64,000 nt of DNA from Planctomycetota bacterium (lineage in GTDB: Bacteria; Planctomycetota; JAJSAM01), in NCBI GenBank assembly GCA_024274785.1, contig JAJSAM010000009.1, positions 1-64,000 of the forward strand. Reading direction: 5' to 3'. A model generated the notes under the pieces. The model had not been told where the DNA came from and did not search any database. It saw only the letters and a list, made by a program, of their open reading frames with translations. This document shows, piece by piece, positions 11,390-48,746 of the stretch. A program made the translations under genes and the position numbers. How positions within the stretch are numbered: position 1 is the first letter of the stretch; the number at the start of each line of letters is the position of its first letter.

Positions 11390-11397
11390 GGCGCGCG

Positions 11398-11426
11398 ATT
11401 CTGCGGGGTCGTGTCCAAACCGTCAA
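11398..11426 (-). promoter_or_regulatory. Sigma70-type promoter for plsY-gpsA
   Basis: On the minus strand TTGACG (11426-11421) and CAGAAT (11403-11398) are separated by exactly 17 nt. Transcription should begin about 11390-11392, only a few bases before the plsY GTG at 11389. The promoter sits inside the 53-nt divergent gap with hyuA. Confidence 0.6.
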
Positions 11427-11442
11427 CTACCATGTCGCCACC

Positions 11443-13428: not shown

Positions 13429-14999
13429 TGGGAACCACGAAGCTGGATGCCGTCCGTCTCGAAGTTTTCAAACATCTCTTCGCGGCCGTGGCCGAGGAGA
13501 TGGGGGTCGTGCTCGGCCGCTCCTCTTTCTCCCCGAACATCAAGGAGCGGCGGGACTTCTCCTGCGGGGTCTTCGATGGCGCCGGCCGGCTCGCGGCGCA
13601 GGCGGCGCACATTCCCGTGCACCTCGGTTCCATGCCGCTCTCGGTGGCGGCGGTGCTGACGGACCTCGACCTCGGTCCGGGGGACGTCGCCGTCCTGAAC
13701 GACCCCTTCCGCGGCGGGACGCACCTGCCGGACATCACGATGGTGCAGGCGGTCTTCATCGACGGACGGCGGCGGTTTCATGTGGCGAACCGTGCGCACC
13801 ACGCGGACGTCGGCGGTGTCCGGCCGGGCTCGATGTCACTCACCGGTTCCATCTTCGAGGAAGGCCTGCGGATTCCCCCGGTGCTGCTGGCGCGGGCCGG
13901 GGAGGTCTCGCCGGGTGTGCTCGATCTGATCCTCGCCAATGTGCGCACGCCGGACGAGCGGCGCGGTGATCTCGACGCCCAGCGCGCCTCGCTCCTTTCC
14001 GGGGAGCGGCGGCTCCTGGCGCTGGTCCAGAAGTATGGAGAGGTCCCCCTCGAGGACGCGGCGAGCGCGCTCATGGATTACACCGAGCGCATGGTCCGTT
14101 CGATGATCCGGGGTATTCCCGACGGAGAGTATCGAGCTGCCGACGTGATGGACGACGACGGCATCAGCGAGCATCCGGTCGACCTCAGGGTCTCGGTTCG
14201 CGTCCGGGGCGACCGGGTCGCCGTGGACTTCTCGGAGTCCGCGGACCAGGTCGAGGGCGGGGTGAATGCGAATCGGGCGGTGACGCTTTCCGGAGTGCTC
14301 TACGTTTTCCGCACGCTGTTGCCGGCGGAGGTGCCGGCGAATGGCGGGCTGCTCCGCCCGATCGAACTCATCACGCGTCCGGGGACGGTGGTGGATGCCG
14401 TGTTTCCCGCCGCGGTGGCCGGCGGCAACGTGGAGACCAGCCAGCGGGTGGTGGATGTTCTGCTGCGGTCGCTTGGTGCGGCACTGCCCGACCTGATCCC
14501 GGCGTCGAGCGCGGGCACCATGTCGAACCTCTCGATCGGGGGGCTCGACCTTCGCGGGCGGCCGTTCTGCTACTACGAGACGATTGCCGGGGGCGCCGGA
14601 GCGGGGCCGCGGAGAGACGGCTGCTCCGGCATCCAGACGCACATGACGAACACGCTGAACACCCCGGTCGAGGCGCTCGAGCACGTCTGCCCGCTGACGG
14701 TGACCGCCTATCGCCTGCGGAATCGTTCCGGAGGCCGCGGCGCCCGCCACGGGGGCGACGGCGTGATCCGGGAGATCCGCGCCGAGGTTCCGTGCCGGGC
14801 GTCGCTCCTCTCCGATCGTGTGAAGAACGGTCCGCCCGGTCTGGCCGGCGGAGCCCCGGGCCGCCCCGCCGCCCCCGCTGTGATCCGAAACGGCAAGAGG
14901 CGCCGCATCGCCTCGAAGGTGGACGTGGACCTCTCTCCCGGCGATCGCATCCGGATCGAAACCCCTGGCGGTGGTGCCCATTCCCCGCCTCCGGGGTGA
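13428..14999 (+). CDS. hyuB: Hydantoinase/5-oxoprolinase subunit B
   Basis: Partner subunit of 523 residues, slightly shorter than many HyuB proteins. The ATG at 13428 overlaps the hyuA stop. Family features include KERRDFSCGVFD, AAHIPVHLGSMP, LNDPFRGGTHLPDI with metal-site Asp/His residues, NRAHHADVGG and GGNVETSQRVVDV. The glycine-rich C-terminal region GLAGGAPG and a Pro-rich terminus close the protein. It should form a heteromer with HyuA; no transporter gene lies alongside to suggest an imported substrate. Confidence 0.93.
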   Translation: MGTTKLDAVRLEVFKHLFAAVAEEMGVVLGRSSFSPNIKERRDFSCGVFDGAGRLAAQAAHIPVHLGSMPLSVAAVLTDLDLGPGDVAVLNDPFRGGTHLPDITMVQAVFIDGRRRFHVANRAHHADVGGVRPGSMSLTGSIFEEGLRIPPVLLARAGEVSPGVLDLILANVRTPDERRGDLDAQRASLLSGERRLLALVQKYGEVPLEDAASALMDYTERMVRSMIRGIPDGEYRAADVMDDDGISEHPVDLRVSVRVRGDRVAVDFSESADQVEGGVNANRAVTLSGVLYVFRTLLPAEVPANGGLLRPIELITRPGTVVDAVFPAAVAGGNVETSQRVVDVLLRSLGAALPDLIPASSAGTMSNLSIGGLDLRGRPFCYYETIAGGAGAGPRRDGCSGIQTHMTNTLNTPVEALEHVCPLTVTAYRLRNRSGGRGARHGGDGVIREIRAEVPCRASLLSDRVKNGPPGLAGGAPGRPAAPAVIRNGKRRRIASKVDVDLSPGDRIRIETPGGGAHSPPPG

Positions 15000-15287
15000 T
15001 CGTCCCGAGTCTGAAAAGGGCCGGTTTGTAGAAGAGCAGTCTCGTCGAGATCGCAGCTTTCGCCCCCGGGGGAGCATTCGGCAGCGGGTGCGGGGTTGCG
15101 CGGGGGGGGCCGGGGATGGAGAATGGATACGGAGCCCACCGCGTAGAGGAAAAGTAGCTTTCGGTGGGCCCCGGCGGGGCGCCTCGGCGTCCCGCTTCTC
15201 TATCGGGCGGGGGGGCCTGTCTCCGGAGCGAAATCCGGCGGTTCTTCTTCCTTCCGCAGGGTAGGGTTGGGTCTTTGGAGGCGAGTT

Positions 15288-16061
15288 ATGCGCTGGATTA
15301 TGGCCAGTCTCGGACTGTTGACGGTGATCGTCGTGTTTTCGCTCGCGGCTCTCGATCAGAAGAACGTGGTCTGGGTCGGCGACGAGCCTCTTTGTCCTCA
15401 CTGTCGGCACGAAGTCACCGAGTTTGCGTCTGTCTGTACCTCCTGCCAGCGGGCCTTCGACTGGAAGATCAACGAGGTGCCCTGCGATGCCTGCCTGAGC
15501 TCTCGCGATGCGCGGTTCTACCTGCACAAGGTCCAGGCGAACGCCGAGGCTTTCGAGGCCGCCCTGCAACAGGCGGGGATCGAAAAGGAGCAGTTGCCGG
15601 GCTTCCTCGAGTACGCGGAGTCCCTGAAGGAAGGCCGCTGCGGTTATTGCGGCGGGTCCGGGGAATGGCTGGCGCCGGGGTACCAGGAGAGGACCACCGG
15701 CGACGGCGGGATCACCGAACTCTATCCCCTGATGCGGGACTACATGAACGGCAAGTGCCCGGTTTGCTTCGGCACCGGACGCTGCGTGCTCTGTGACGGG
15801 GACCGCATGGTCGAGATCGGCCGCGAATCCGCCAAGCGGGACCTGTTGCGGGTCAGCAAGATGGGCGCCCGGATCGATCCCCTCCGGGATGAGCGCAGCG
15901 CCGGGGCGAAGTTTCAACTCCTCGATGCGTATGTACGCAATCATCGGGGGCGGGGTGAAGTCCGGAAAGTCGCATCGTTCGACCAGATTTCCGAGCGCCA
16001 CATCGAGCGAGCTCTGGCGCGCCGCAGGTTCATCGAGGAGATCATCCTGACCTTGCCATGA
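15288..16061 (+). CDS. Membrane-anchored zinc-ribbon protein with DnaJ-type CxxCxG repeats
   Basis: A 257-residue protein starting at the ATG at 15288, seven nt after GGAGG. An N-terminal membrane anchor (about residues 5-22) precedes a double zinc ribbon (CPHC ... CTSC, then CDAC). Farther on come DnaJ-like zinc knuckles: CGYCGGSG, CPVCFGTGRC and VLCDGD. The remainder is helical and charged. The stop overlaps the next gene as ATGA. It is probably a surface-facing or cytoplasmic scaffold or chaperone-like protein, but no exact family is recognised. The 288 nt before it (15000-15287) hold nothing recognisable. Confidence 0.7.
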   Translation: MRWIMASLGLLTVIVVFSLAALDQKNVVWVGDEPLCPHCRHEVTEFASVCTSCQRAFDWKINEVPCDACLSSRDARFYLHKVQANAEAFEAALQQAGIEKEQLPGFLEYAESLKEGRCGYCGGSGEWLAPGYQERTTGDGGITELYPLMRDYMNGKCPVCFGTGRCVLCDGDRMVEIGRESAKRDLLRVSKMGARIDPLRDERSAGAKFQLLDAYVRNHRGRGEVRKVASFDQISERHIERALARRRFIEEIILTLP

Positions 16062-17656
16062 AGCGGCTGATACCGATCCTCCTGGCGCTCCCTTTTCTCG
16101 GCTTGTTCGCCTGGATCACTTTCAGCGGCCCGTCACCGGAACTGGCAAAAAAGGATCCGGTCCGGCCGAAGGAGCGCATCGAGGACTTTCGACGGCCCCT
16201 GCCATCCCTGCCCGATGATCGCCGCCGGCGCAAGGATCCGAAGCCGGCGCCCGGGCCTGAGCCGGTTCCCGGGGAGGAGGGCTGTGCGCTCTTCGGCGTG
16301 GTCCAGCTCCCCGATGGCGAACCGGCCGGGGGCGTCCTCGTCTACCTGACCGTCCCCGGCGCGGTCGTTCGCGTCGACGGCCCGAAGACTGCCACCGACC
16401 CGTCCGGGCAGTTTCTGCTTACCGTCCTTCCGGGCTACTACGACGTCATCGCCTGGCAGGCCGGTCTGGTCCCCGCGGTGGTGGCGGACGTGCGCGCTGC
16501 GGCGGGCCGCCGCCTCGACCTCGGAAACCTGAAGCTCCTCCCCGGACTCACCATCACCGGCCGCGTGGTGGATACCGAAGGCCGTGCGATCCCGGACGCC
16601 GCGGCGGGAGCGCGTTCCCCCGACCTCCGACTGCCCGGAGGCGGCCTTCCCGGTCGGGTAGCGATCGGCCGGTTCTCGTCCGCCGCGACCGAGCCGGACG
16701 GCACGTTCCGGCTGACCGGGCTGCTGCCGGGCACGCTGCTGGTCCGGGCCGATGCGCTCGGATTCAAGATGATGGCGGAACCGAAAGAAGTTTCGGCCGG
16801 GGAGACCGGTGTGGTTATCGAGCTTCAAAGACGGCTTCTTCTCACCGGCCGGATCCTCCGCGAAGCCGACGGTCGTCCCATCCCGGGCGTCACGGTGAAA
16901 CTGGAGATCAGGACGAGGCAGTTTACCGGCAGCCAGTTCTTCAAGACCGTGGCGGACGGGCGCTTCTCGTTCGACCTTACCCAGGAGGACCTTGAGGATC
17001 AGGAGGTGGAACTTACGCTCCGCGTCTCCGGGGCGGGATATGTGGAGCTGACCGCGACGGCGCTCTCCCTCGAGGAACTCAGTCCGGCGAGGAAGTACGT
17101 CCTGCGGCTCATCGAGGCTGTTCCCGAGGAGCCTGGCATTCTCATCGGACGCGTGCTTTACGACACCGGCGCTCCGTTTGTGGGCAGCCTCACGCTCTCG
17201 TTCTCGCGGGAGGGCAGCGCCGGCGACATCTTCCGGGTGCGGACGGATGACGAAGGCCGCTTCAAGCTGCCCGGTATTCCGCCCGGTGAGTACAGGCTGC
17301 ACACCGCGCCGCACAGCACCGAGGTCCTCCTCGAGACCGGCAAGGTCATCCTGATCACGGCCGGCGGGGAGGAGATGACGGAGTTCACCATTCCGCGAGG
17401 CGGCGACGTGAAGATCACCGTGACCGACGATCGCGGTGAGATCGTGGCGGATGCGGAGGCCGCGTTGCTGGATGCCACCGGCGCCACGATCCGGGTCCAT
17501 CCGGCCCGGGACGGCGCCATCGTTTTTCACGACCTCGAGCCCGGTGAGGTCCGGTTCAAGGTCACCGCGCCCGGGTACGGATTCGCCACGCTCACGGCCA
17601 CGATCGAGAAGGACCGCGCCGTCGGACTCTCCGCCCGCCTGCCGGAGGCTCGATGA
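16058..17656 (+). CDS. Exported carboxypeptidase-regulatory-like repeat protein
   Basis: A 532-residue protein with an N-terminal hydrophobic segment (signal or anchor, residues 4-22) and a basic, Pro-rich linker to about residue 75. At least four beta-sandwich units of the CarboxypepD_reg/SdrD-B kind follow. Each has the pattern G.V....G.P..G..V and ...T..DG.F.L..L.PG.Y.... No catalytic domain is visible. It lies between two ATGA overlaps, so it is translationally coupled to both neighbours. A structural or adhesive envelope role is likely but not proven. Confidence 0.7.
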   Translation: MKRLIPILLALPFLGLFAWITFSGPSPELAKKDPVRPKERIEDFRRPLPSLPDDRRRRKDPKPAPGPEPVPGEEGCALFGVVQLPDGEPAGGVLVYLTVPGAVVRVDGPKTATDPSGQFLLTVLPGYYDVIAWQAGLVPAVVADVRAAAGRRLDLGNLKLLPGLTITGRVVDTEGRAIPDAAAGARSPDLRLPGGGLPGRVAIGRFSSAATEPDGTFRLTGLLPGTLLVRADALGFKMMAEPKEVSAGETGVVIELQRRLLLTGRILREADGRPIPGVTVKLEIRTRQFTGSQFFKTVADGRFSFDLTQEDLEDQEVELTLRVSGAGYVELTATALSLEELSPARKYVLRLIEAVPEEPGILIGRVLYDTGAPFVGSLTLSFSREGSAGDIFRVRTDDEGRFKLPGIPPGEYRLHTAPHSTEVLLETGKVILITAGGEEMTEFTIPRGGDVKITVTDDRGEIVADAEAALLDATGATIRVHPARDGAIVFHDLEPGEVRFKVTAPGYGFATLTATIEKDRAVGLSARLPEAR

Positions 17657-19170
17657 AGATCCTGCTGCTGATCGGTGTGCTCGTCGCCGCCGGCGCCGTG
17701 GCCGTGGCGTTCGTGCTGCTCCTCGATGGTCCGGCCCCCTTCACCGCGCAGACGCCCTCGCCGGAAGTCGCCCCCGATGACTCACGGCCGGTGATCCCGG
17801 CCGCCGATCCCATGTCCGTCACCGGTCGCGTGGTCGGTCCAGCCGGCGCGCCGCTCGCCTCCGTCGATGTGTATCTGCTCTCCCCCGACAATCCGCTGGT
17901 CCCGACCGATGAACCGCAGAGGGCTCGGACCGGCGAGGATGGAACCTTCATCCTGCGCGGCATGCAGGGCGAGCGCGTCGATATCATCGCGTTTCGCGCC
18001 GGCTTCCGCCCGGGAGTGGTGCCGGATGTTTCTCCGGGAACGACTCATCGCCTGACGCTTAAGGTGGGGGTGGTCGTCGCCGGAACGGTCACCGACGACC
18101 TCGGGCATCCGCTGCCGGGAGTGAGCGTGACCGCCCGGACCAGCGGCACGAACTTCGTCCCCGGCCGCGGCATGTTCCTGCCAAATCACGAGGCCCTGGC
18201 CCTGACCTGGGTCCGTACCCTGTCCGGCTCCGATGGCGGGTTCAGGCTGCGCGGCGTGGGGGATGGCTTGCTCAACATCACCGCCGGGAAACGCGGCTAT
18301 CCGGAGATGGAGAACCCGCTGAACGGTTTCGCCCCTGCCGGCGGGCCGGCCCGCATCGTGTTGCTGCGCCCGTTCACCGCGTCGATCACCGTACGGGACG
18401 CCGAGTCAAGCAAGCCCCTTCCCCGCGTGGCGGTGACGGTGTCCCGGGTGGATGCGGAAGAGGAGCGCGCCATCGGTCGCACCAACCATCGTGGCCTCTT
18501 CACCGGGCGGATGCCCTGGCCCGCGGCGCAGGCGCCGGATTGCCGTGTCTCGATCGTTGCCTGGGACCGCCGCTACGGTGAGATCAGGGCGGACGGCATC
18601 GCGCTCGCCAAAGTCGAGGAGGGGAAGGGCTTCACGCTGCACGCGCTGCGACGGGATCCGGGAGTGGTCCGCCTGCGGGTGGTCTACGACACCGGGGAAC
18701 CCTACTCGCGGTGGATCGGATTTCGGTTCGAGGTCACGCCGAAGGTGAACCAGTTCCGTGGCGGCCGACCGGACGAGGATGGCTATGTCACCATGAAGGT
18801 CCCCGCGGGTACGTATCCGAAGGTGCGGGTAGCGGCGGGAGGAACGGTCGGCCGGGCGGAACTCTCTGGCGTGCAGGTCCTCTCGGGCGAGACGTTCGAG
18901 AAGAGCGTTGTGGTCGAGCGTGGCGGCGATCTGCGGCTGCACTTCGTCGGTGAGGACATCGCGGACCGCGTTTCGGGAAGCGTGAAGCTCGAGTCGAAGG
19001 ACCACCTTACGCAGCGTGGAGTCTGGGGCCGGGAGTTCAGGATCCGGGACCTGCCTCCCGGTGACCTCAAGGTCACGGTCGAAATCCGGGACTATCTCCC
19101 CGTTACGATGAGTATCCAGATCATCAAGGGGAAGAGGTTCGATCTCCCGGTAAAGCTCCGTCGTCGCTGA
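17653..19170 (+). CDS. Exported carboxypeptidase-regulatory-like repeat protein (paralogue of preceding gene)
   Basis: A 505-residue paralogue of the gene before it, overlapping it as ATGA. An N-terminal membrane segment (residues 3-24) is followed by CarboxypepD_reg-like sandwiches. Clear units are SVTGRVVGPAGAPLASVDVY and VVAGTVTDDLGHPLPGVSV, each with TGEDGTFILRG-type strands. Its last 47 nt are also coding on the other strand for the C-terminus of the MurJ-like flippase. Function is unknown; probably co-exported with its neighbour. Confidence 0.7.
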   Translation: MKILLLIGVLVAAGAVAVAFVLLLDGPAPFTAQTPSPEVAPDDSRPVIPAADPMSVTGRVVGPAGAPLASVDVYLLSPDNPLVPTDEPQRARTGEDGTFILRGMQGERVDIIAFRAGFRPGVVPDVSPGTTHRLTLKVGVVVAGTVTDDLGHPLPGVSVTARTSGTNFVPGRGMFLPNHEALALTWVRTLSGSDGGFRLRGVGDGLLNITAGKRGYPEMENPLNGFAPAGGPARIVLLRPFTASITVRDAESSKPLPRVAVTVSRVDAEEERAIGRTNHRGLFTGRMPWPAAQAPDCRVSIVAWDRRYGEIRADGIALAKVEEGKGFTLHALRRDPGVVRLRVVYDTGEPYSRWIGFRFEVTPKVNQFRGGRPDEDGYVTMKVPAGTYPKVRVAAGGTVGRAELSGVQVLSGETFEKSVVVERGGDLRLHFVGEDIADRVSGSVKLESKDHLTQRGVWGREFRIRDLPPGDLKVTVEIRDYLPVTMSIQIIKGKRFDLPVKLRRR

Positions 19171-20701
19171 CGTTGCGCTTCGCGAGAGCCCGGATGACTT
19201 GCGCCAGGTGAATGTTCCTGCATACGGCCAGCACGCCGAGGTAGACCGCCAGGCTGACCGCGCCGAGTGCTCCGAGAATCGCGGCGCGAAGAAGGAACGG
19301 ATTGCCCCGCGGCGGGATCAGGTCGCGGGCGAACCAGAGGATGGTCGCGGTAACCGCTCCGGCCAGGGCCATCTGGAGGAGTGACTTCAGGATGCCCTCG
19401 CCGCGTGGTCTGCCGAGCAGCAGCAGCAGCGCCGTCCCGGTGAAGATCGCGGTGACGGAGATCCCGATGCCGGCGAGGAGCGCCAGGCCCCGGTACCCGA
19501 AGGCGTTGCGCATTGGTATGCCGAGCGTGGCGTAGACGAGCAGGCCGGCCATCGCCGCCAGCACCGGGACCTTCACCTTCCGGAGCGCGAGGAAGGCGTG
19601 GTTCAGGACCCGGCCCGCCGCCGCGAGCACCAGGAACGGGAGCAGGAGTCGCAGGACCGCAGCGGCGTGTTCGGTGTCCCGGGGACCGAAGCGGCCGCGC
19701 TCGAATACCAGTGAGATCGCGTCCCCGGCAAAGACGAAGAGCAGGATCGCGCCGGGGAGGATGACCAGGAAGAGGATCACCGCGGCGCGCCAGGTGCGGC
19801 TGCGCAGTTCGACGAGATCCTTCCGGGCGGCGGACTCCGCGAAGGACGTGTAGGAGGTGATGATCAGGGATGTTCCGAAGAGCATGATCAGCAGGTTGGC
19901 CGGGCGGCGGCCATAGTCGAGCCAGGAGACGGGACCCACCGCGGGGTCGGCGATTCCGGAGGCGAAGCGCTTCTCGATGATGAGGTAGGCGGTGACGAGC
20001 GCGGCGGCGAAGAAGAGGGGGGGCAGCAGGGTGAGGATCCGGCGGACTCCCTCATCGCCGAGGTGGAAACGTGGCCGGTAGCGTCCGGTCCGGAAGGTCG
20101 CCACGAGCAGGATCAGCAGTTGCGCCCAGCAACCGGCGACCAGTCCGAATGCCATTGAGGCGACGCCCATCGATTCGCGAAAGAGCAGCAGGCCGGTGAT
20201 CAGGCCGATCGGCTGGGCGAGCGTGGCGGTGGCCGGAAGGGCGAACTTTCGCAGTCCCTGCAGGGCGGCGGCGAGCACCAGTGACGCTCCCGCCGCCGGG
20301 ATCGCCCAGATGGCGATTTCGAGGAGCGTGCGTGTCAGGGCGAGCCGGGCCGGGTCGAAATCGGGGACGAGCAATCGCGTCAGCGGTTCCGAGTAGATGG
20401 TGACCAGCACGGCCAGGACCCCGAGGCCGATGAACGTCAGGTTCGCGATGCCGGAGAGGACGGCAAACCACTCCGCTCCGCGTTCCTTCCGGACGGAAAC
20501 GAAGACCGGCAGGCACGCCTTGCCGAGCGATGCGAAGAGGGCGAACGTCAGGAAATTCGGCACCGCCACCGCGGAGAACCAGGCATCCGCGCTGAGTCGG
20601 GCCCCGAACATCCCGGCAAAGAGGATGTGCACGGACAGGGAGACCAGGTATCCGCAGAGGTTGAGCAGCGTGATCCGGGCGGTGGAACGGGCGAGACTCA
20701 T
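19124..20701 (-). CDS. MurJ-like lipid II flippase / MOP-superfamily exporter
   Basis: A 525-residue polytopic membrane protein of the MviN/MurJ branch of the MOP superfamily, with 13-14 hydrophobic segments. Features include GARLSADAWFSA near the N-terminus, VFERGRFGPRDTEHAA (compare the FERG.F motif of MurJ) and a conserved LAAAGRVLNHAF segment. It should translocate lipid-linked peptidoglycan precursor or another undecaprenyl-linked sugar. The ATG at 20701 has no Shine-Dalgarno; a TATCCT box lies 8 nt upstream. The 3' end overlaps the convergent gene by 47 nt. Confidence 0.8.
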   Translation of the reverse strand: MSLARSTARITLLNLCGYLVSLSVHILFAGMFGARLSADAWFSAVAVPNFLTFALFASLGKACLPVFVSVRKERGAEWFAVLSGIANLTFIGLGVLAVLVTIYSEPLTRLLVPDFDPARLALTRTLLEIAIWAIPAAGASLVLAAALQGLRKFALPATATLAQPIGLITGLLLFRESMGVASMAFGLVAGCWAQLLILLVATFRTGRYRPRFHLGDEGVRRILTLLPPLFFAAALVTAYLIIEKRFASGIADPAVGPVSWLDYGRRPANLLIMLFGTSLIITSYTSFAESAARKDLVELRSRTWRAAVILFLVILPGAILLFVFAGDAISLVFERGRFGPRDTEHAAAVLRLLLPFLVLAAAGRVLNHAFLALRKVKVPVLAAMAGLLVYATLGIPMRNAFGYRGLALLAGIGISVTAIFTGTALLLLLGRPRGEGILKSLLQMALAGAVTATILWFARDLIPPRGNPFLLRAAILGALGAVSLAVYLGVLAVCRNIHLAQVIRALAKRNVSDDGALPGDRTSSP

Positions 20702-39180: not shown

Positions 39181-39260
39181 TCTGGTGCCGATGCGTCCCT
39201 CTTCATGGGGGCATCGGACATTGGGACGGACCGGCCCTTCGGCCGGGAAAGGCGGTGAGC

Positions 39261-40979
39261 ATGACGCGGTGGGGCGCACTTCTGATCCTGCTGATCGTTC
39301 CCGGGCTCGCATTTGCGGCGCCACCTCCGGGAGACGTCTCCTTCCGGGACATCACGGCCACCTCCGGCGTGACGTTCCGCCATACCTTCGGCGACCGGGA
39401 TTTCAGCAAGATCCTGAAAGCCACCGGCTCCGGCGTGGGGATCCTCGACTACGACGGCGACGGCGACCTCGACCTCTACTTCGTGAACGGCTCCTACCTC
39501 GAAGAGATCTGCGATGAAGCGGGCAAAGTGAACGAGGGTGCCACGAACCGGCTGTTCCGCAACGACGGCCGCAACGCCGAACTCGGCACGATCACTTTCA
39601 CGGACGTGACCGAGGAAGCCGGCGTGGGTGACACCGGGTACGGCATGGGCTGCGCCGTGGCCGACTACGACAACGACGGCGATACGGACCTCTATGTGAC
39701 GAACTACGGTCGGAACGTCCTGTACCGCAATAACGGCGACGGGAGATTCACGGTGGTGACCGACACGGCGGGCGTGGCCGGACCATCGAGCCTGAACGGG
39801 TTCGTCAAGTGGTCCACCAACGCCTGCTGGTTCGACTACGACAAGGACGGCCAGCTCGATCTCTACGTCTGCAACTACCTGGCCTTCGATCCGGCCTTCA
39901 ACAACTTTTACGGCCCCGAAGGTTTTCCCGGGCCGTCGAACTACCTCGGCCAGCCCTCGATCCTCTATCGGAACAAGGGCGACGGCACCTTCGAGGACGT
40001 GACCGTGAAGGCCGGCCTCTTCCGCAAGGAGGGCCGGGGCATGGGCGCTTCCGCCGGCGACCTCAACAACGACGGTTGGCCGGATCTCTTCGAGGCGAAC
40101 GACGACATGGTGAACTTCCTGTTCATCAACCAGGGCGACGGAACCTTCCGGGAGGCCGCCGATGAGACGCTCGTCGCTCGTGGGCAGGGTGGAGAGAACA
40201 CCGCCGCGATGCACGGGGCGATGGGGGATTTCGACCGCGACGGCCGGCTCGACATCTTCGTCCCCGACATGAATTACTTCTCGCTGTTCCGGAACCTCGC
40301 CTCGGAGAGTTGGACGAGAATGGTCTTCGAGGACACCACCATGCGCTCCGGCATCGCTGCGGCCTGCGGCCAGTATGTCGGCTGGGGCGGTTTCTTCTTC
40401 GACTACGACAACGACGGCTGGCAGGACATCTTCGTCGCCACCGGCGAGGCCCACCGGCCGGAAAATGAGCCGAACCTGGTGCTCCGGAACCTCGGCAACG
40501 GCAAGTTCAAGGATGTCTCCCTCTCCCTCGGCAAGCGCCTGTTCTGGGAGCGGCGGCTCTCTCGGGGCGCGGCCTGCGCCGACCTCGACAACGACGGCGA
40601 CCTCGACGTGGTGGTCGTGAACATCGACGTCAAGGCGAAGGGAAAGGAAGGGCTGCCCTCGGTTCTCGAGAACATCGGTGGCAACGCCAGGAACTGGCTG
40701 ACCGTGAAGCTCATCGGCGCCCGCAGTAATCGCGACGGGATCGGGGCGAAGATCATCGTAACCGCGGGCCGGCGTACGTATGTCGACGAGGCGCGCTCCG
40801 CGGTGGCCTATCTTTCGTCGGTTACGCCCCGCGTGCACTTCGGCCTCGGCGATGCGGAAGCGGTGGAGCGCGTGGAGGTCCGGTGGCCTTCCGGGGAGGT
40901 CCAGGTGCTCGAGGATGTTTCGGTGAACCAGCTTCTGATCATCACTGAGAAAGTGGCCCGGAAGGGGGGTGGCCGATGA
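39261..40979 (+). CDS. Exported FG-GAP/ASPIC-UnbV repeat protein
   Basis: A 572-residue protein with a signal peptide (LIVPGLAFA/APPP). Six or more FG-GAP/VCBS blades carry calcium-type Asp motifs such as DYDGDGDLDLYF, DYDNDGDTDLYV, DYDKDGQLDLYV and DLDNDGDLDVVV. The ASPIC/UnbV domain occupies about the last 90 residues (RNWLTVKLIG, GVGAKI-like GIGAKIIVTAG, RVEVRWPSGEVQVLEDV). These proteins are beta-propellers of unknown role found in large numbers in Planctomycetota and Acidobacteriota. The stop overlaps the cytochrome gene as ATGA. An in-frame GTG at 39255 is an alternative start. Confidence 0.88.
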   Translation: MTRWGALLILLIVPGLAFAAPPPGDVSFRDITATSGVTFRHTFGDRDFSKILKATGSGVGILDYDGDGDLDLYFVNGSYLEEICDEAGKVNEGATNRLFRNDGRNAELGTITFTDVTEEAGVGDTGYGMGCAVADYDNDGDTDLYVTNYGRNVLYRNNGDGRFTVVTDTAGVAGPSSLNGFVKWSTNACWFDYDKDGQLDLYVCNYLAFDPAFNNFYGPEGFPGPSNYLGQPSILYRNKGDGTFEDVTVKAGLFRKEGRGMGASAGDLNNDGWPDLFEANDDMVNFLFINQGDGTFREAADETLVARGQGGENTAAMHGAMGDFDRDGRLDIFVPDMNYFSLFRNLASESWTRMVFEDTTMRSGIAAACGQYVGWGGFFFDYDNDGWQDIFVATGEAHRPENEPNLVLRNLGNGKFKDVSLSLGKRLFWERRLSRGAACADLDNDGDLDVVVVNIDVKAKGKEGLPSVLENIGGNARNWLTVKLIGARSNRDGIGAKIIVTAGRRTYVDEARSAVAYLSSVTPRVHFGLGDAEAVERVEVRWPSGEVQVLEDVSVNQLLIITEKVARKGGGR

Positions 40980-42511
40980 AACGGTTCCTGGCGATCTTCC
41001 TGCTGGCGGGGGTGGCCGTGCCGCTCGTCATCGCCCTGGCCCAGGACGCGCCGGATGCGCAGGAGGCCGGTGAGTCCCTCTGCCAGACCTGTCATGAGAC
41101 GGCCGGGACGGGCAACCAGTGGGCGGTTTACACGCAGAGCGCGCACTCCCGGTCTTTCGCTTCGCTGGCCGGCGAAAAGGCCGAGGGAGTGGCTGCCCGG
41201 GCTGGTGTGGACGGCGATCCGAAGGTGTCCGAACTCTGCCTTTCCTGCCACGCGCCGATCGCCGCCGACCGCGCCGCGGGGGTGAGCTGCGAAGCTTGCC
41301 ATGGCTCCGGGGAGAAGTATGCGGGGGTCTGTGGGGAGTCATTCGCGAAGGCCGTCCCGCTCGGGTTGCATCTCTCCGGTGAGCGGCAATGCGTCAATTG
41401 CCACGTGAAGAGCAAGGCGCACCCCGATCTCGACTTCCTGTTCGTCCTCGACTGGGAGGACATCGCCCATCCGCGCCCGCCCGCGAAGAGCGACGAAGCG
41501 CTCTTCAGCACCGAAGGGATCTATCGCCACTGGGAGATCTTCACCGAAAAGGACGGGCTGCCCCACCACATGGTCTTCGGGGTGACGCCGGCCGGTGACG
41601 ACGTCTGGTTCGCCACCGAGGACGGCGTCGCACTCTACCGGGATGGCGAATTCAAGACCTGGAGTGTCGCCGAGGGCCTGCCGCACCGGGCGGTGACGCA
41701 GATCGTGGTGGACGAGGAAACCGGCGAGGTCTGGGCTTCGACCATGGCCGGCATCGCCTCGTTTGACGGCGAGAAGTGGACGGCCTACACCCAGGAGAAC
41801 TCGGGGCTCGCCAACAACTGCACGTTCGGCATCACGCTGTTCGATGACGACGTCTGGGTCGCTACCTTCGATGGGATCTCGCGTTACAACCGCAAGACTG
41901 GTGAGTGGAAGAAGTACTACCTGGACAACGCTCCGCTCGAGGAAGTGTGGATCTACGGCACCGAGGCGGACCACGAGAAGGTCAATTTCGCGGTGTGGGG
42001 CGGCGGGCTCGTCGAGTACTTCCCCGCCGAGGATCGCTTTGCCGCTCACCACGACCCGGATGGATCCTTCGAAATGGACCTGATCCAGAACGACGGGGTG
42101 ATTTCACAGATGACCACGTCGGTCTCCCGGGACAACGGCTGGACCTTCGTCGCCAGCTACTTCGGAATGAGCGCCTACAATGGCCGGGACTGGATCGAGA
42201 TGGACATGGATAACTCCGGACTCCTCTCGAACTTCATCAACTTCGTGAAGGCCCGGCGCTCCGAGGGCTGGTTCGCCACCGACCGGGGACTCTCCTCCTT
42301 CGACGCCAAACGGGATCGCTTCGTGAACTACCGGCGGCTCGACGGTCCCGGGGATTTCTGCGAGATCACGATCAGGTCCCGGGACGGCAAGCGGAGCAAG
42401 ACCTTCGTCAGCGGGTCCTCGTTCCCCTTCAACTTCATCTGGGGAGTGGGTTTCCAGGGCGAGGACATCTGGGTGGTTACCAGCAACGGCGTCGCCCGGG
42501 GGAGGTACTGA
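40976..42511 (+). CDS. Tetraheme cytochrome c fused to a two-component-type beta-propeller
   Basis: A 511-residue exported protein. After a signal peptide (to about residue 22) come four CxxCH heme sites: Cys36-His40, Cys88-His92, Cys105-His109 and Cys139-His143. The spacing resembles the cytochrome c554 family. From about residue 175 the protein becomes a propeller of Reg_prop-like blades (DDVWFATEDGVALYRDGEFK, GEVWASTMAGIASFDGEKW, DDVWVATFDGISRYNRKTG). No kinase or DNA-binding output follows. It probably sits in the periplasm, combining electron transfer or redox sensing with a binding surface. It overlaps the gene before it and is 1 nt from the gene after it. Confidence 0.85.
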   Translation: MKRFLAIFLLAGVAVPLVIALAQDAPDAQEAGESLCQTCHETAGTGNQWAVYTQSAHSRSFASLAGEKAEGVAARAGVDGDPKVSELCLSCHAPIAADRAAGVSCEACHGSGEKYAGVCGESFAKAVPLGLHLSGERQCVNCHVKSKAHPDLDFLFVLDWEDIAHPRPPAKSDEALFSTEGIYRHWEIFTEKDGLPHHMVFGVTPAGDDVWFATEDGVALYRDGEFKTWSVAEGLPHRAVTQIVVDEETGEVWASTMAGIASFDGEKWTAYTQENSGLANNCTFGITLFDDDVWVATFDGISRYNRKTGEWKKYYLDNAPLEEVWIYGTEADHEKVNFAVWGGGLVEYFPAEDRFAAHHDPDGSFEMDLIQNDGVISQMTTSVSRDNGWTFVASYFGMSAYNGRDWIEMDMDNSGLLSNFINFVKARRSEGWFATDRGLSSFDAKRDRFVNYRRLDGPGDFCEITIRSRDGKRSKTFVSGSSFPFNFIWGVGFQGEDIWVVTSNGVARGRY

Positions 42512-42512: not shown

Positions 42513-43910
42513 ATGCGCACCATCGTGTTTCTGAGCATTGCCGCGATCATCGGCGCGGTCTTCGGTTTTCTCGCGTCGGCTCCGATGCCCACCAATGCGG
42601 GGGAGGCTCCGGTCAAGGAGCCGATCCACCGGCCGGCCGCGATGGATGGCGAGGAGGCGCCGGGGGCGATTGCGGAGGAGCGTCCTGACATCGGCTTTGC
42701 CGGTCGGGTCCTGCACCCTAAGTTCGTCCAGCCCTACTACAACTTCGCGCGCCCCAGTTCAATTCCGCTCGACCGCTCCTTCTCCGATTTCGTGGATCCG
42801 ATCGGTCGCAGCGACGCCTCGTTCGAAAACGACGAAGAGGTACGGATCGGCTTCATCGGCTGCCTCTCCGGCCCTTTCAAGTTCTATTCCGGCGAGATGC
42901 TGAACGGGGCCATGATGGCGGTCGAGGAGATCAACGCGGCCGGCGGCTACCACGGCAAGCCGGTGCGCCTGATCCAGCGCGACGACCGGGCGCGGATGGG
43001 TGAAGACGCCAACCAGATGGTGAAACTCTGTTACGAGGATCGGGTGCTCGGCGTGCTTGGCTCCATGTCCTCGGACACGACGCACGTGGCCCTTCGCGTG
43101 GCCTTGAAAGCCGAAGTTCCGCAGATCACCTGCATCTCCACCGACCCGACCATCACCCAGATCGTCGTTCCCTGGATCTTCCGCAGTCTGGCCGACGACT
43201 GGTCCCAGAGCCGGGCGCTCGCCAAGTACGTTTTCCAGCAGCGTGGTTTCAGGAAAGTGGCGCTGCTCGAGCACAACAACCGCTATGGCCGGATGGGCAG
43301 CGCGGAGTTGAAGCGTGTCGCGAAGCGGATGGGCGTCCCGATCAAGGTGGCGATGAAGTATCCGTCATCCCAGAAGGACTTCGCGAAGTACATCCAGGTG
43401 ATCAAGGACTACGGCGCCGATGCCATCGTCAACTGGGGTCTCTATCCCCATGGCGCCCGGATCGTCAGGCAAATGAAGGAGGCCGGGCTCGACATCCCCT
43501 TCTTCGGGGCGGACGGACTCGTGGCGCAGGCTTTCATCGACCAGGCCGGGGAAGCGGCCGAGGGCGTGGTGGTGACCTACCCCTACGATTTCTACCGTGA
43601 CGATCCGCTCACGCAGTCGTTCAACAAGCGCTTTCTCGAGAAGTACGGCCACTCACCGGACTCGTTCGCGGCGCATGGCTACGACACCATGTACGTGATG
43701 TGGCGGGCGGTCAAGGAGGGGGGGCTCAACCGGACCCGCATCCGGGACGCTCTTGCGAGGACGAAGGACTTTCACGGCGTCACGGGTATGATCTCTTTCG
43801 ACCATCGCGGTAACGACATGCGCGGCGTTGATTTCGCCGTCGTGCACAAGGGACAGTTCCTGCCGCTCCGCATGGCTGGGGAATTCGTCCGCAAGGGGGC
43901 GCATGAATAG
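42513..43910 (+). CDS. Branched-chain-amino-acid-type ABC substrate-binding protein (orphan)
   Basis: A 465-residue periplasmic binding protein of the Peripla_BP_6/LivK class. An N-terminal membrane segment (residues 3-24) is followed by a Pro/Glu-rich spacer of about 80 residues before the binding fold starts at VRIGFIGCLSGPF. Further family stretches are EEINAAGGYHGKPVRLI, VLGVLGSMSSDTTHVAL, FGADGLVAQAFI and AHGYDTMYVMW. No permease or ATPase gene is nearby, so it may be a sensor or carrier rather than part of an importer. Its last codons overlap the rhodanese start. Confidence 0.85.
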   Translation: MRTIVFLSIAAIIGAVFGFLASAPMPTNAGEAPVKEPIHRPAAMDGEEAPGAIAEERPDIGFAGRVLHPKFVQPYYNFARPSSIPLDRSFSDFVDPIGRSDASFENDEEVRIGFIGCLSGPFKFYSGEMLNGAMMAVEEINAAGGYHGKPVRLIQRDDRARMGEDANQMVKLCYEDRVLGVLGSMSSDTTHVALRVALKAEVPQITCISTDPTITQIVVPWIFRSLADDWSQSRALAKYVFQQRGFRKVALLEHNNRYGRMGSAELKRVAKRMGVPIKVAMKYPSSQKDFAKYIQVIKDYGADAIVNWGLYPHGARIVRQMKEAGLDIPFFGADGLVAQAFIDQAGEAAEGVVVTYPYDFYRDDPLTQSFNKRFLEKYGHSPDSFAAHGYDTMYVMWRAVKEGGLNRTRIRDALARTKDFHGVTGMISFDHRGNDMRGVDFAVVHKGQFLPLRMAGEFVRKGAHE

Positions 43911-44754
43911 AGTTTCGATCTGGAGAGGGATCGCCGCGGGTCTCGCCGGCTTGCTGTGGGTGGTGACGATGGCCGCCTGCGGAAATGGGGGAGGTGAGTC
44001 CGCGGCACCGACGAAGAAGGTCGTCGATCTCGACATCAAGGCGTTCGCCGCGGAGGTTCGCAGGGATCTCGCGGAGGACGGCCGCCTGGATTCCTTCCTG
44101 ATTTTCGATGCGCGTCAGCCGAGGGAATATGAGATCCGCAGGATTCCCGGAGCGATCTCCCTGCCCTATGGTGGCGCTCCGCTGAACCCCGGGAAGCAGT
44201 TCTTCACCAATCCCGCGACCGGGAAGACCGGAATCGATGCGATGACCCTTCCGGACGGCTCCGCCATTCCGAAGGGCCGCCGGATGGTTTTCTATTCCGG
44301 GCGCAGCGGGTGAGCATCTTCCGGAGCGGCCTGGGCGGCCGCTACGCACGGCTTTACCAACGTTCAGAAACTCGTGGACGGGATGGATGCCTGGACCTGG
44401 CTCGGATTCGCCACCGGGGTATCCACCGCGGCCGAACTTGCGCGCAAGGCGGAGGCGGGGGCCGTACCACTGGACCTGCGATCCCCCGAAGCATTCGCCG
44501 CCGGGCACATCCCGGGCGCGGTGAACGTGACCGCGAAGGAGGTGCTGGCCGACCCCGCGGCCGTTCAGGCCCGGGTTCGCAAGGAGGTTCCGGAGGCCAG
44601 GGCGGTTACGCTCTACCTCGCCGGTGGCCGGGAGGCGGACCTTTACCGCGCCGCGTTCGCGCTCGAGGGCGAGGTTCGCCTGGCGATCTTCCTCTTCCCA
44701 GCGGGATTCTCGGCCTGGAAGGCCGAAGGAAGGCCGGTTTACTCCACGGAGTGA
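43903..44754 (+). CDS. Tandem rhodanese lipoprotein, predicted selenoprotein (in-frame TGA 44311-44313 = Sec137)
   Basis: Sulfurtransferase-type lipoprotein of 283 residues if TGA is read as selenocysteine. The signal ends MAAC (Cys26). Rhodanese domain 1 runs about residues 50-165: DARQPREYEIRRIPGAISLP, then VFYSGRSG-U-ASSGAAW and GFTNVQKLVDGMDAW. In the family with FYC(5)CxxS loops the second Cys is catalytic; here exactly that position is TGA, with Ser at the first Cys. Domain 2 (about 175-283) has LYLAGG where YC is expected and should be inactive. Both sides of the TGA are in the same frame, and a SECIS-like hairpin follows. Alternatives are a nonsense mutation or a sequencing error. Confidence 0.75.
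44325..44343 (+). promoter_or_regulatory. Bacterial SECIS-like stem-loop after the rhodanese TGA
   Basis: AGCGGCC (44325-44331) pairs perfectly with GGCCGCT (44337-44343) around the five-base loop TGGGC. The loop begins 18 nt after the TGA and has G at its second position. This agrees with the bacterial SECIS rules known from formate dehydrogenase and other selenoprotein mRNAs: small apical loop with an early G, 16-37 nt from the UGA. It would bind SelB. Confidence 0.65.
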
Positions 44755-45161
44755 AGGAAGCAGGATCCGGTCAGGCTGGTGAGGGTCGCCTTCTCGAGGC
44801 GCCCGGTGATCATGCCCTGGAGTTCGTCCCAGAGGCTGTACATCTTGCAGTGGTCTTCCCGCTCGCACCAGCCGCGGTCCATCGTGCAACTGGAGATGGA
44901 GATCGGGCCTTCCATGCCTTCGACCACTTCGCGCAGGTTGATCTTGTCGGGAGAGCGGGAGAGCGTGTAGCCGCGCTTGGCGCCCCGGTGGGATGTGACC
45001 AGGCTGAGCCTCGACAGGATCTGAAAGATGTTGCTCAGGTAGTTCGTGGGGGCGCCGATAGACTTGGCGATATCAGCCAGCAGAATGGGATCCGGCTTCT
45101 CCTGCATGGACAGGAAAACCAGCCCGCGAATCGCGTATTCACAGCCTCGAGTCAACTGCAT
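44739..45161 (-). CDS. Rrf2-family transcriptional regulator
   Basis: A 140-residue winged-helix regulator with the standard opening MQLTRGCEYAIRGLVFLS and recognition region GAPTNYLSNIFQILSRL. Cysteines 92, 99 and 105 (C-x6-C-x5-C) can hold an iron-sulfur cluster, as in IscR, NsrR and RsrR. It should therefore sense iron-sulfur status, NO or redox state. GGGAGG lies 9 nt before the ATG. The 3' end overlaps the rhodanese gene by 16 nt on the opposite strand. The target is unknown; autoregulation and control of the divergent aro genes are candidates. Confidence 0.92.
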   Translation of the reverse strand: MQLTRGCEYAIRGLVFLSMQEKPDPILLADIAKSIGAPTNYLSNIFQILSRLSLVTSHRGAKRGYTLSRSPDKINLREVVEGMEGPISISSCTMDRGWCEREDHCKMYSLWDELQGMITGRLEKATLTSLTGSCFLHSVE

Positions 45162-45439
45162 CGTGTAAACCTCCCGCCGGGAAAAGCCCCCTCGGGCGCC
45201 GGCGGGACAGATATTAGCCTGCACATCCACTCAACTGCACGGATCTCTTTCTACGAGGCACGCACTGCCGCCGACCCGTGCCGCCATGGGCGAAATGGCC
45301 TGCCCCCGGGCCTCGCATATCTTATGGCGGGGCGCTTCACTCCGGGATACAATCAGCCTGTCGGGTTTGCTTCGGTACAAGGGAATGACGCGGCGGGTGA
45401 CTGAAACCACGGAGTAGAGCCTGCAGGAGGCGCAGCCTT

Positions 45440-45451: not shown

Positions 45452-45537
45452 TGACGTTCGAAATCTCCGCAGCACCCCTGGAATTTACGTGGCGTTCCCG
45501 GAGTGCCCGCACGGTCAATCCTCCATTGAGGCAGGGG

Positions 45538-45591
45538 CGCACTGTGGTCCTTTCAAGCGGAGTGGTCCCTTCATGCGGAGTATTCCCTTCA
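45538..45591 (+). repeat. Three 18-bp tandem repeats before the DAHP synthase start
   Basis: Units at 45538-45555, 45556-45573 and 45574-45591 share the consensus nGCGGAGTGGTCCCTTCA; unit 1 is the most diverged. They end 12 nt before the ATG at 45604. Because each unit is six codons they also stay open in the downstream frame, so a longer N-terminus from 45526 is formally possible. They may affect translation or bind a regulator. Confidence 0.6.
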
Positions 45592-45603
45592 AGGATGGGC
45601 CCG

Positions 45604-46458
45604 ATGGGTGACCACCGGAGCTACCCTCTGATTGCACGCGCGGGCAAGGACGGATACGAGAACAACCTGCAATCCAGGACCTTCAGCGTCGGTTCCGCCG
45701 TATTCGGCGCCGATCTTCCCACCATCATCGCCGGTCCCTGCGCGGTCGAGTCCCGCGAGCAAACGCTCGGAATTGCCAAAGCGGTCAAGGAAGCCGGAGC
45801 GGACTGCCTGCGCGGCGGCGCGTTCAAACCGCGCACCAGCCCCTATTCGTTCCAGGGCCTCGGGCGGGAAGGCCTGGAGATTCTGGCCGAGGCCCGGGCG
45901 GAGACGGGTTTGCCGGTGGTCACGGAAGTCATGGACGTCCGGCTGGTCGAACTCGTCTGCGAGGTCGCGGACATGCTCCAGATCGGCTCTCGCAACATGC
46001 AGAACTTCCCCCTCCTGATCGAGGTGGGGAAGGCCGGCAAGCCGGTGTTGCTGAAGCGGGGGATGAGTGCCACCATCGACGAGTGGCTCTGTGCGGCGGA
46101 GTACATCGCCCTTTCCGGCACCGCGGAGATCCTGCTGGTGGAGCGTGGCGTCCGGTGTTCCGTCAGTCGCGGGTATACGCGGAATACGCTCGACCTGAAC
46201 GTGATCGTTCCCACGCGCGAGGAGACGGTGCTGCCGGTGCTGGCGGACCCCAGCCATTCCACCGGCCGGGCCGACCTGGTTCCCTGGGTGTCACGTGCCG
46301 CGATCGGCGCCGGGGCCCAGGGGCTCATCATCGAGGTGATCGGGGAGGACATGAGGCCCGAGGATGTGCGCTGCGACGGCGCCCAGTCCATCAAGCCGAG
46401 CGTTCTCCGGGAGATCATCGACACGGTGAAGACACCGGTTCCCGGGACGGCTGTGTAA
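45604..46458 (+). CDS. aroF: 3-deoxy-7-phosphoheptulonate (DAHP) synthase, type I beta
   Basis: First enzyme of the shikimate pathway, condensing phosphoenolpyruvate and erythrose-4-phosphate; about 284 residues. Signature stretches: [68 protein letters not shown] and [12 protein letters not shown]. There is no fused chorismate mutase or regulatory ACT domain. ATG 45604 is preferred for its AAGGA at 8 nt, though ATG 45595 is possible. It is separated by one codon-length step from aroC, forming a shikimate pair. Confidence 0.93.
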
Positions 46459-47571
46459 ATGAGCAATACTTTCGGCGAGAGGTTTCGGGTCACCACCTTC
46501 GGTGAAGCGCACGGCCCGGCCATGGGGGCCGTGATCGACGGTTGCCCGGCGGGGCTCAGACTCTCCGCGGACGATCTGCTGCCGGATCTGGCCCGCGACG
46601 TGCCGGACGAAGCGATCGGGACCCCGCGCCGGGAGCCGAACACTCCGGAAATTCTCTCCGGCGTCTTCGATGGACGTACGCTCGGCACCCCGATCCTGAT
46701 CCTGATCCGGAATGAGGATGTCTGCTCGAGAGGTTACCTCGCTCGCCGGAACACCCCGCGTCCCGGACACGCCGATCTCACTTTTCGGCAGAAGTACGGC
46801 CACTACGATCCCCGGGGCGGTGGCCGGTCGTCCGGTCGGGAGTGCATCGCGAGGATCGCCGCGGGCGCGGTGGCGCGGAAGCTGCTGCGAACCCTCGGCA
46901 CCGCGATCACCTCGGAGGTGCTGGAACTCAGCGGTATCGAGATCCGGACGAAGGACGACCTCGCACGTGCTCGCGAAGAGGTCCGGCGGATCGGATCCGA
47001 GGGCGACTCCACCGGCGGGATCGTTCGCGTGACCGCGAAAGGAGTCCCTGCGAGTCTTGGCACCCCGGTGTTCGGGAAACTCTCCGCCCTCCTCGGCGCG
47101 GCGTACCTCTCCATCGGCGGCGTGAAGTGCGTCGAGTTCGGTGAGGGGCGCGGTCACGCCCGGATGAAGGGCAGCGAGAGCAACGATCCGCTCGGCCCCG
47201 CCGGCCGCGAGGTCCGTCCGATGACCAATCGGGCCGGTGGCACACTCGGTGGCATCAGCACCGGGCTTCCGGTGGTGGCCACCCTCGCGGTGAAGCCGAC
47301 GCCGAGCATCCGTCGCGAACAGGATACGGTGGACCTGGCGACGGCCAGGCCGGTCAAGGTGAGAGGCGTGGGGCGGTTTGACATGAACTTCGCCCCCCGG
47401 GTCGCGGTGATCGCCGAAGCCATGACCGCCCTCGTCCTGGTCGACGCCTGCTTCGAGGCCGGTTTCCTGCATCCCTCCCGGGTGACGGAGAGCGAGGAGG
47501 AGGTGGCCGCGGGCGACCCCGCCCTGGCGGACTCTCAGCCGCGGTCCCGGGCGCCGGAGAGCGAGGGGTGA
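46459..47571 (+). CDS. aroC: Chorismate synthase
   Basis: FMN-dependent enzyme of 370 residues forming chorismate from 5-enolpyruvylshikimate-3-phosphate. Conserved features: VTTFGEAHGPAMGAVIDGCP, RPGHADLTFRQKYGHYDPRG with the GRSSGRE box, GGISTGLP and the C-terminal SIRREQDTVDL. The ATG directly follows the DAHP synthase stop. The 3' end overlaps the polyferredoxin start as GTGA. The C-terminal tail is Pro/Arg-rich. Confidence 0.97.
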   Translation: MSNTFGERFRVTTFGEAHGPAMGAVIDGCPAGLRLSADDLLPDLARDVPDEAIGTPRREPNTPEILSGVFDGRTLGTPILILIRNEDVCSRGYLARRNTPRPGHADLTFRQKYGHYDPRGGGRSSGRECIARIAAGAVARKLLRTLGTAITSEVLELSGIEIRTKDDLARAREEVRRIGSEGDSTGGIVRVTAKGVPASLGTPVFGKLSALLGAAYLSIGGVKCVEFGEGRGHARMKGSESNDPLGPAGREVRPMTNRAGGTLGGISTGLPVVATLAVKPTPSIRREQDTVDLATARPVKVRGVGRFDMNFAPRVAVIAEAMTALVLVDACFEAGFLHPSRVTESEEEVAAGDPALADSQPRSRAPESEG

Positions 47572-48746
47572 GGTCCGCGCTGCGCGCGTGGTGGTTCCTG
47601 GTCCCGGCGGGTCTGCTCCTCGTTGTGGCCCTCGACGTGGACTACGACTATCTGCTCGGGCTGAACACCTACGGCAACTTCGACGCGCCGTCGAGCCAGG
47701 CATTCGTGCAATACCTCCTGCCGGGAACTCCCGACTCCGCCGGAGCAAAAATCTATCGGTTCGGATCGGGCATCCACCTCGAGCCCATCGTGGCGCTGTG
47801 CTCGATTTTTGTGATCTTCCTGTTCCTCCGGGCCTTCCGCTCCGTGGATGTGAAACTCGGCATCTCCCGCTGGCTCACCGCCTGGGCGGCGTTCGTCGTT
47901 GCCCGTTTCGGCCTGCTACGGGTCTCCGGGGTGGCCCCGGTGAAACGCTGCACCTACGGGATCTTTCCGTTTCTGAACTGCCAGGCTTGCGAGATGGCTT
48001 CCGGCGGGTGTCCGATCGGCGCTCTCCAGGCCTCCCTGCTCCAGGTGCGGTTCCCCCTCCTGCCTCTGGCGGTGCTCCTCCTGACCGGTCTGGCTCTCGG
48101 TCGGTGGATCTGCGGCTGGCTCTGTCCCTTCGGACTCCTCTCCGACATTTTCGACCGGTTCTCGAAGAAGAAGGTGACGCCCGCGCGGGCGTGGTCGTGG
48201 CTCAAGTTCGTCGTGCTCGTCCTGATCTTCATCGTGCCGCTCATCATGGCCGGCCAGGGCGGAGCGACCTGGCTGCCGTTCTGCTCGACGCTTTGCCCCT
48301 CGGGGTCGTTTTTCGGACTGCTTCCCTACTATGCGACGACCGCCGCGGGCGACGTCGGCGCGCTCTTCACTCCGGGCCACACCGTGGGACTCCTGATCCT
48401 CGGCTTCCACACCGCGGTGGCGCTCACCTTCGTCTGGCTGGCACGCGTGATCTCCGGCCGGGTCTTTTGCATCTACCTCTGTCCGATGGGGGCGTTCCTC
48501 GGGCTGTTCCACCGGTTCTCGATGGTGCGGGTGGTGCACTTCGACGACCCCTGCAACGATTGCGGGCACTGTCGCGGGGATTGTCCGATGCGGATCGACC
48601 TCTCCGACCCGCACTTTCTCACAAGAAGCAACTGCATCCGCTGCGGGCGATGCGTGGCGCTCTGTCCCACCGACGCCCGGCAGTGGAAGTTCGGCTTTTC
48701 GAATCGAGAGACGAAAGAGACGAAGGAGGCGGGCGTTGCCGGCTGA
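47568..48746 (+). CDS. Membrane polyferredoxin (NapH/NosR-like 4Fe-4S protein)
   Basis: A 392-residue inner-membrane iron-sulfur protein starting at GTG 47568. Six or so transmembrane segments carry cytoplasm-facing CxxxCP motifs: CEMASGGCPIG, CGWLCPFG, CSTLCPSG and CIYLCPMG. Two C-terminal ferredoxin-type motifs follow: CNDCGHCRGDCP and CIRCGRCVALCP. It resembles quinol-linked electron relays such as NapH, NosR and CcoG. No matching terminal reductase is adjacent, so its electron partner is unknown. It is coupled to both aroC and the ligase gene by overlaps. Confidence 0.88.
   Translation: MRSALRAWWFLVPAGLLLVVALDVDYDYLLGLNTYGNFDAPSSQAFVQYLLPGTPDSAGAKIYRFGSGIHLEPIVALCSIFVIFLFLRAFRSVDVKLGISRWLTAWAAFVVARFGLLRVSGVAPVKRCTYGIFPFLNCQACEMASGGCPIGALQASLLQVRFPLLPLAVLLLTGLALGRWICGWLCPFGLLSDIFDRFSKKKVTPARAWSWLKFVVLVLIFIVPLIMAGQGGATWLPFCSTLCPSGSFFGLLPYYATTAAGDVGALFTPGHTVGLLILGFHTAVALTFVWLARVISGRVFCIYLCPMGAFLGLFHRFSMVRVVHFDDPCNDCGHCRGDCPMRIDLSDPHFLTRSNCIRCGRCVALCPTDARQWKFGFSNRETKETKEAGVAG

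Follow-up and report, generated by a model that had tools for sequence, protein, structure and literature searches.

A c554-type tetraheme domain fused to a Reg_prop-type propeller in a planctomycete operon related to hydrazine-synthase-homologue cassettes

Positions 1 to 64,000 of contig JAJSAM010000009.1 from a Planctomycetota bacterium (GCA_024274785.1; this whole stretch is called the window below) contain an open reading frame (ORF) in which heme-binding motifs precede a beta-propeller of the type used as input domain by hybrid two-component sensors. This raises the question of what a heme-bearing sensor propeller does when no kinase follows it, and how such a protein came about. Our results confirm that the ORF at 40976-42511 on the forward strand consists of a c554-type tetraheme domain and a Reg_prop-type propeller without a kinase. 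We further consider it somewhat more probable than not that a hydrazine-synthase-homologue cassette underwent a deletion-fusion and that this protein, exported and still encoded in an operon, is what remains of it, i.e., an adaptor without its enzyme.

The heme-propeller protein

The ORF is a real open frame of 511 residues with an ATG start. CxxCH motifs lie at residues 36, 88, 105 and 139 (starting at 41081, 41237, 41288 and 41390), and four or more such motifs did not occur in any of 100,000 shuffles of residues 1-172. The Pfam model Cytochrome_C554 (PF13435) matches residues 36-110 with 37.6 bits against a curated cut-off of 20.8 (E = 4.3e-9), which together with the four motifs places the domain (residues 33-172, 41072-41491, forward strand) among the cytochrome c554 domains. 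All four CxxCH motifs and two further histidines are invariant in an alignment of 11 such domains. A first-pass annotation, made from the sequence letters, had described the protein as a tetraheme cytochrome, and this description holds.

The same annotation had read the second half, residues 183-511 (41522-42508, forward strand), as a Reg_prop-like propeller of the hybrid-sensor type. The Pfam Reg_prop model (PF07494) gives 17.1 bits here, below its curated cut-off of 20.4; among separate homologous propellers, those of loci L025 (25.2 bits) and L026 (24.1 bits) pass this cut-off and that of L028 (19.7 bits) fails. Homology and fold nevertheless agree on the type. A phmmer search against the PDB sequences finds 4a2l at 5e-16, and up to E<=1 every match is a periplasmic propeller from a two-component sensor of Bacteroides. 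The AlphaFold2 model, built from a 38-row alignment, has a mean pLDDT of 90.7 and seven blades when counted by hand from its strand list, the last of them presumably completed by strand 186-189. In Foldseek the first 15 ranks are taken by sensor propellers of BT3049, BT4663 or BT4673 (3v9f at 1.9e-16). The top VIA-align match is also a sensor propeller (Z 30.5 over 284 residues, 2.8 A), in a near tie with ordinary WD40 propellers at Z 29-30; the rows of this comparison were filled by propeller matches, and it therefore speaks to the propeller fold. As phmmer and Foldseek both return Reg_prop-type sensors, an unrelated propeller can be set aside.

A Pfam scan of all 511 residues at E<=1 gave no kinase, as had been proposed, and neither a transmitter nor a receiver domain; the protein is therefore not a hybrid two-component sensor with a histidine kinase or receiver in the same chain. 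Nor is it an assembly join of two genes. The family of the window was represented by three draft genomes (G000, which is the window's own, G001 and G002; 79-90% complete), and a survey for the same fusion found it in all three, with 67% and 58% identity to the window protein and all four heme motifs kept. Because the fusion thus recurs in two further genera, an artefact of assembly is ruled out.

The operon and the related cassettes

The fusion gene lies in an operon-like run of four genes encoding an FG-GAP/CRTAC1-type protein, the fusion, a Peripla_BP_6 periplasmic binding protein (PBP) and a rhodanese. The first of these (39255-40979, forward strand) carries FG-GAP repeats (FG-GAP_3, 2.1e-49) and UnbV_ASPIC (1.8e-21), and its end overlaps the fusion gene by 4 bases. 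One base separates the fusion stop codon from the gene of the PBP (42513-43910, forward strand; Pfam 3.1e-64; PDB 4gnr, 4.5e-40), which is LivJ-like and 75% and 74% identical to its counterparts in the other two family genomes. In G001 (locus L022) heme domain, propeller and binding protein even form one in-frame ORF of 955 residues. The model of this protein (mean pLDDT 79.6) has a low-confidence linker at residues 530-584 between propeller and PBP, and its heme domain is poor, with no contact readable.

In other Planctomycetota families, including sister families of the same order, the propeller is a separate gene. A contig scan with the window protein alone confirmed no relative, and an alignment of eight propellers yielded 17 loci. 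The typical order in these cassettes is FG-GAP, a protein with the HZS_alpha domain (PF18582), a propeller-diheme beta-gamma-like protein, the Reg_prop-type propeller, Rid and Peripla_BP_6; order and members vary among the 23 loci compared, several of which end at contig edges. These related cassettes are the hydrazine-synthase-homologue clusters described by Hagglund et al. (2025; PMC12758564). According to the main text of that paper, beta-gamma proteins of clade I carry two c554 domains, and an FG-GAP gene and ABC binding proteins belong to the clusters; it judges the homologues (clades I-III) to be without key hydrazine-synthase residues and gives no known function for those outside anammox bacteria. 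A word search of the same main text finds no naming of the Reg_prop-type propeller. Genes resembling hzs have also been reported from Phycisphaerae metagenome-assembled genomes, OFTM5 and OFTM285 among others (PMC10732223), and loci L067 and L068 bear these two names. Among open-licence papers, we found none that joins cytochrome c554 with a two-component regulator propeller, and PMC12758564 was the single one to turn up for a fusion of multiheme cytochrome, propeller and binding protein in Planctomycetes.

The cassette is also carried by Bacteroidota (L069, L070, L195 and L196), in which 3 of the 395 genomes searched have the propeller, and by the Elusimicrobia genome GWA2_69_24 (L071), whose contig breaks off after the propeller. 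In the PDB the L071 proteins match hydrazine synthase (HZS), the enzyme with which anammox bacteria make hydrazine, in its beta (1.3e-34), gamma (6.1e-13) and alpha (2.3e-9) subunits. The alpha match is weak alone, since polyubiquitin and designed propellers score alike; the alpha-like identity is instead drawn from the HZS_alpha model, which scores above its threshold for cassette proteins of six genomes (G003, G004, G005, G007, G167 and G289), and from L026, which encodes a 33%-identical relative with an HZS_alpha domain. Rid/L-PSP proteins occur in 15 of the 23 loci (L024-L028, L067-L070, L082-L085, L087 and L090), between propeller and PBP or farther downstream; none were seen in the clusters of the window's family.

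Propeller and beta-gamma-like protein tend to occur together. Among 392 Planctomycetota genomes, a strong propeller match (E<=1e-70) was found in 18, a cassette-grade beta-gamma in 15 (14 at E<=1e-80 and a contig-edge fragment in G188), and both in 14 (Fisher p 2.5e-21, for genomes that are related by descent and with a beta-gamma cut chosen after seeing the list). When all 41 genomes with a beta-gamma are counted, the propeller is found in 14 of them. Both searches scored the best few candidates per genome, and 4 of 22 genomes, with weak propeller matches (E 1e-15 to 1e-22), are left out of the count. The propeller occurs without beta-gamma in the three family genomes and in G162, which has FG-GAP, DAHP synthase, the propeller and two PBPs; beta-gamma occurs without the propeller in G222, where Rid directly follows it.

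Within the order, beta-gamma is present in five of the six other genomes (G003-G007), as it is in G167 and G289 elsewhere, and was not found in G008, which is also without the propeller. It was not found in any of the three family genomes at E<=1e-10 with all candidates scored. HZS_alpha was likewise not found in G000 and G002; in G001 a single protein with this domain is encoded, on a contig other than that of the cluster. A cluster with both alpha-like and beta-gamma-like proteins was thus not found in these drafts. The three family loci are, in turn, the only ones among the 23 with a heme domain inside the propeller's own ORF.

This context bears on the earlier interpretation, which stands in part. 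The domains, the missing kinase and the guess that the protein is an electron-transfer adaptor, which we judge fair, were well seen; the relation of the operon to hydrazine-synthase-homologue cassettes was missed. Similarly, the framing as a sensor input was correct on the type of propeller, but in related cassettes the propeller has a gene of its own next to those of heme enzymes and a periplasmic binding protein and is not the input of a receptor.

Origin and possible role of the fusion

The beta-gamma proteins of G167 and G289 contain ten heme motifs and begin with two c554 domains; the next gene in these cassettes encodes a stand-alone propeller, and a LivJ-like PBP comes after it. A single deletion from inside the beta-gamma gene into the start of the next gene could have joined c554 directly to the propeller, and alpha and beta-gamma would have been lost from the cluster in the window's family. 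Such a deletion-fusion explains both the gene order and the position of the heme domain in our tree. From 71 matches, 36 of them distinct, 33 c554 domains were used after 3 partial or distant ones were left out. The family's heme domain falls together with the first of the two c554 copies (copy 1) in the beta-gamma proteins of G167 and G289 (92/85), and the 26 other c554 domains, one of which has three CxxCH instead of four, form a separate clade (97/94). The window's FG-GAP protein also groups with G167/G289 (97/95).

Several results weigh against this origin. The missing beta-gamma is no proof of absence in family genomes that are 79-90% complete drafts, and G001 keeps the HZS_alpha-domain protein mentioned above. 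The grouping of the propeller with G167/G289 is weak (55/90), and the window's PBP groups with G162 (100/100) and not with G167/G289; a single origin is unsupported by the PBP tree, which argues for some mosaicism. The propeller is 39% identical to that of G167, 38% to Phycisphaerae and 37% to Bacteroidota, versus 30-33% to the sister families of its own order, and these higher identities outside the order make transfer or a mosaic origin possible. Finally, the heme domain is 31-35% identical to the beta-gamma copies versus 36% and 38% to the best other c554 domains. Because plain identity does not decide, the case for a beta-gamma origin of the heme domain rests on the tree.

The same identities are what a second explanation, less probable but to be taken seriously, would build on. 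In it domain shuffling brought an independent c554-like gene into fusion with the propeller, on its upstream side, and the position next to copy 1 is artefactual, the domain being short and fast. Material for such shuffling is common in Planctomycetota, as c554-like domains were found in 49 of 246 genomes at E<=1e-20, including fused copies and the three family genomes, and the two best other domains are as similar to the window's as the beta-gamma copies are. However, the clade of 26 other domains stands apart while the fusion domains join copy 1, and it is the beta-gamma origin that the gene order predicts.

As a leftover of the cassette, the protein would be exported and have its hemes attached, the propeller could serve as the scaffold on which the binding protein docks, and electrons might travel over the four hemes between a soluble carrier and a partner or substrate held by PBP and propeller. 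The module would then act as an adaptor and not as a transport or kinase-signalling system. Physical coupling of propeller and PBP is favoured because the two form one ORF in 4 of the 23 loci, namely those of G001, G305, G319 and G188 (outside the family at L084 7996-10506, L085 4055-6967 and L091 7479-9500). As G305 and G319 are each other's sisters for both propeller and PBP, at most three joining events remain. The closest relatives of the PBP are LivJ-like binding proteins.

We consider it unlikely that the module is instead a redox-gated ligand sensor, in which a ligand is sensed by PBP and propeller and the redox state by the heme domain, with the complex signalling to an unlinked partner. 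The closest folds are indeed periplasmic input domains of hybrid two-component sensors, and no ABC permease was found beside the PBP among 16 scanned proteins. Regulators are also close by: an Rrf2-family gene (44739-45230, reverse strand; Pfam Rrf2, 4.7e-28) is convergent with the 3' end of the operon, and a LuxR-type regulator closes 5 of the 22 related loci (domains checked in one). Against this, the fusion is without a kinase or transmitter part, and the propellers of sister cassettes adjoin heme proteins and not receptors. A decaying remnant without function, which the missing catalytic subunits might suggest, is very improbable given that reading frames and all heme motifs are intact across three genera at the identities above, and that the fusion is further extended by the PBP in G001.

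Collectively, the locus points to propeller and binding protein as a regular partner of hydrazine-synthase homologues, and the lineage of the window retained this partner, hemes included, in a cluster from which the enzyme genes are missing. A small, expressible protein of two or three domains could give a handle on the ligand and the electron route of the cassette.

The downstream rhodanese, neighbouring genes and known systems

The last gene of the operon (43903-44754, forward strand) encodes a two-domain rhodanese with, by eye, a lipobox-like N-terminus. It appears as two ORFs that form one frame interrupted by a TGA at 44311-44313 in the first active-site loop. A TGA occupies the same site in all three family genomes (FYSGRSG*, FYCYGLG* and FYCYGGG*; L022 8245-8700 and L023 1-719, both on the reverse strand), and the frame continues in each. 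The G001 rhodanese is 36% identical to that of the window over 155 residues; that of G002, on a contig cut there, was not picked up by the same search at 1e-8. Readthrough would give active-site loops UASS in the window, UPTS in G001 and UGAS in G002.

Genes of the selenocysteine (Sec) machinery were found, though not equally well in each genome. SelB exceeds its cut-off in all three genomes, with 336 bits in the window's own, where two SelB-like genes are above cut-off (C47:39269-41152 and C75:71503-73380). The tRNA-Sec scores are 72.1 bits in G000 and 69.2 in G001; the 48.3 bits in G002 are a level reached by some control genomes and not convincing. Downstream of the TGA all three genes have GCGGCC, a 5-base loop with GGG, and GGCCG, with a folding energy no better than that of shuffles; in G001 and G002 the best fold over 56 nt is without this possible GG-loop hairpin. 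With a conserved in-frame TGA in the active site and Sec machinery in the genome, we regard the rhodanese as a candidate selenoprotein, which usual gene calling would split in two. On a more speculative note, and with little confidence, the accessory half of the cassette might be a periplasmic unit that stands on its own and can be reused, its propeller, wired by hemes, presenting the PBP ligand to a redox enzyme; here the hydrazine-synthase-like enzyme would have been swapped for a selenocysteine rhodanese and its sulfur or selenium chemistry.

Beyond the operon, a DAHP synthase is encoded at 45526-46458 (forward strand; Pfam DAHP_synth_1, 4.8e-66). Such a gene is found within the cassette or close to it in 11 of the 23 loci, namely the window and L022, L025, L026, L028, L067, L069, L070, L082, L087 and L088; in L069 and L070, both from Bacteroidota, it is flanked by the genes of the two binding proteins. 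A Fer4_5 and 4Fe-4S protein at 47568-48746 is a possible electron source, and elsewhere in the genome (L038, G000:C48:98000-117900, at 9897-19617) there is a cluster of ORFs with 4, 18, 8, 13 and 5 CxxCH motifs.

Other known systems were also considered. An ABC importer did not fit, as neither permease nor ATPase is found among the six proteins of 39.2-45.2 kb and ten selected proteins of 31.6-54.7 kb. PADLOC gave no match to a known anti-phage system for three proteins at 0.01. The accessory cluster of PQQ alcohol dehydrogenase, which combines a binding protein, a propeller and a rhodanese, was likewise rejected, as its NCBIfam models did not come up for these proteins at E<=0.1.

Four known systems come closer. 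The protein resembles cytochrome c554 in its four CxxCH motifs and its match to the Pfam model, but carries a propeller, and the NCBIfam Nitrosomonas model reaches 16.9 bits against a 400-bit cut-off. The periplasmic Reg_prop propellers of the hybrid two-component systems BT4663 and BT3049 are its best sequence and Foldseek matches; unlike these systems, it has a single propeller and no kinase part, and it bears a heme domain. The candidate rhodanese would agree with the Sec-containing rhodaneses of UxxS form described in PMC13188914, and differs in its position downstream of a heme-propeller cassette. With the hydrazine-synthase-homologue clusters, as portrayed in the main text of PMC12758564, the operon shares the FG-GAP/CRTAC1 gene and the ABC substrate-binding gene, and its c554 domain resembles the ones with which beta-gamma proteins of clade I begin; in contrast to them, the cluster of the window's family was found without alpha and beta-gamma, and its c554 domain is fused to the Reg_prop-type propeller.

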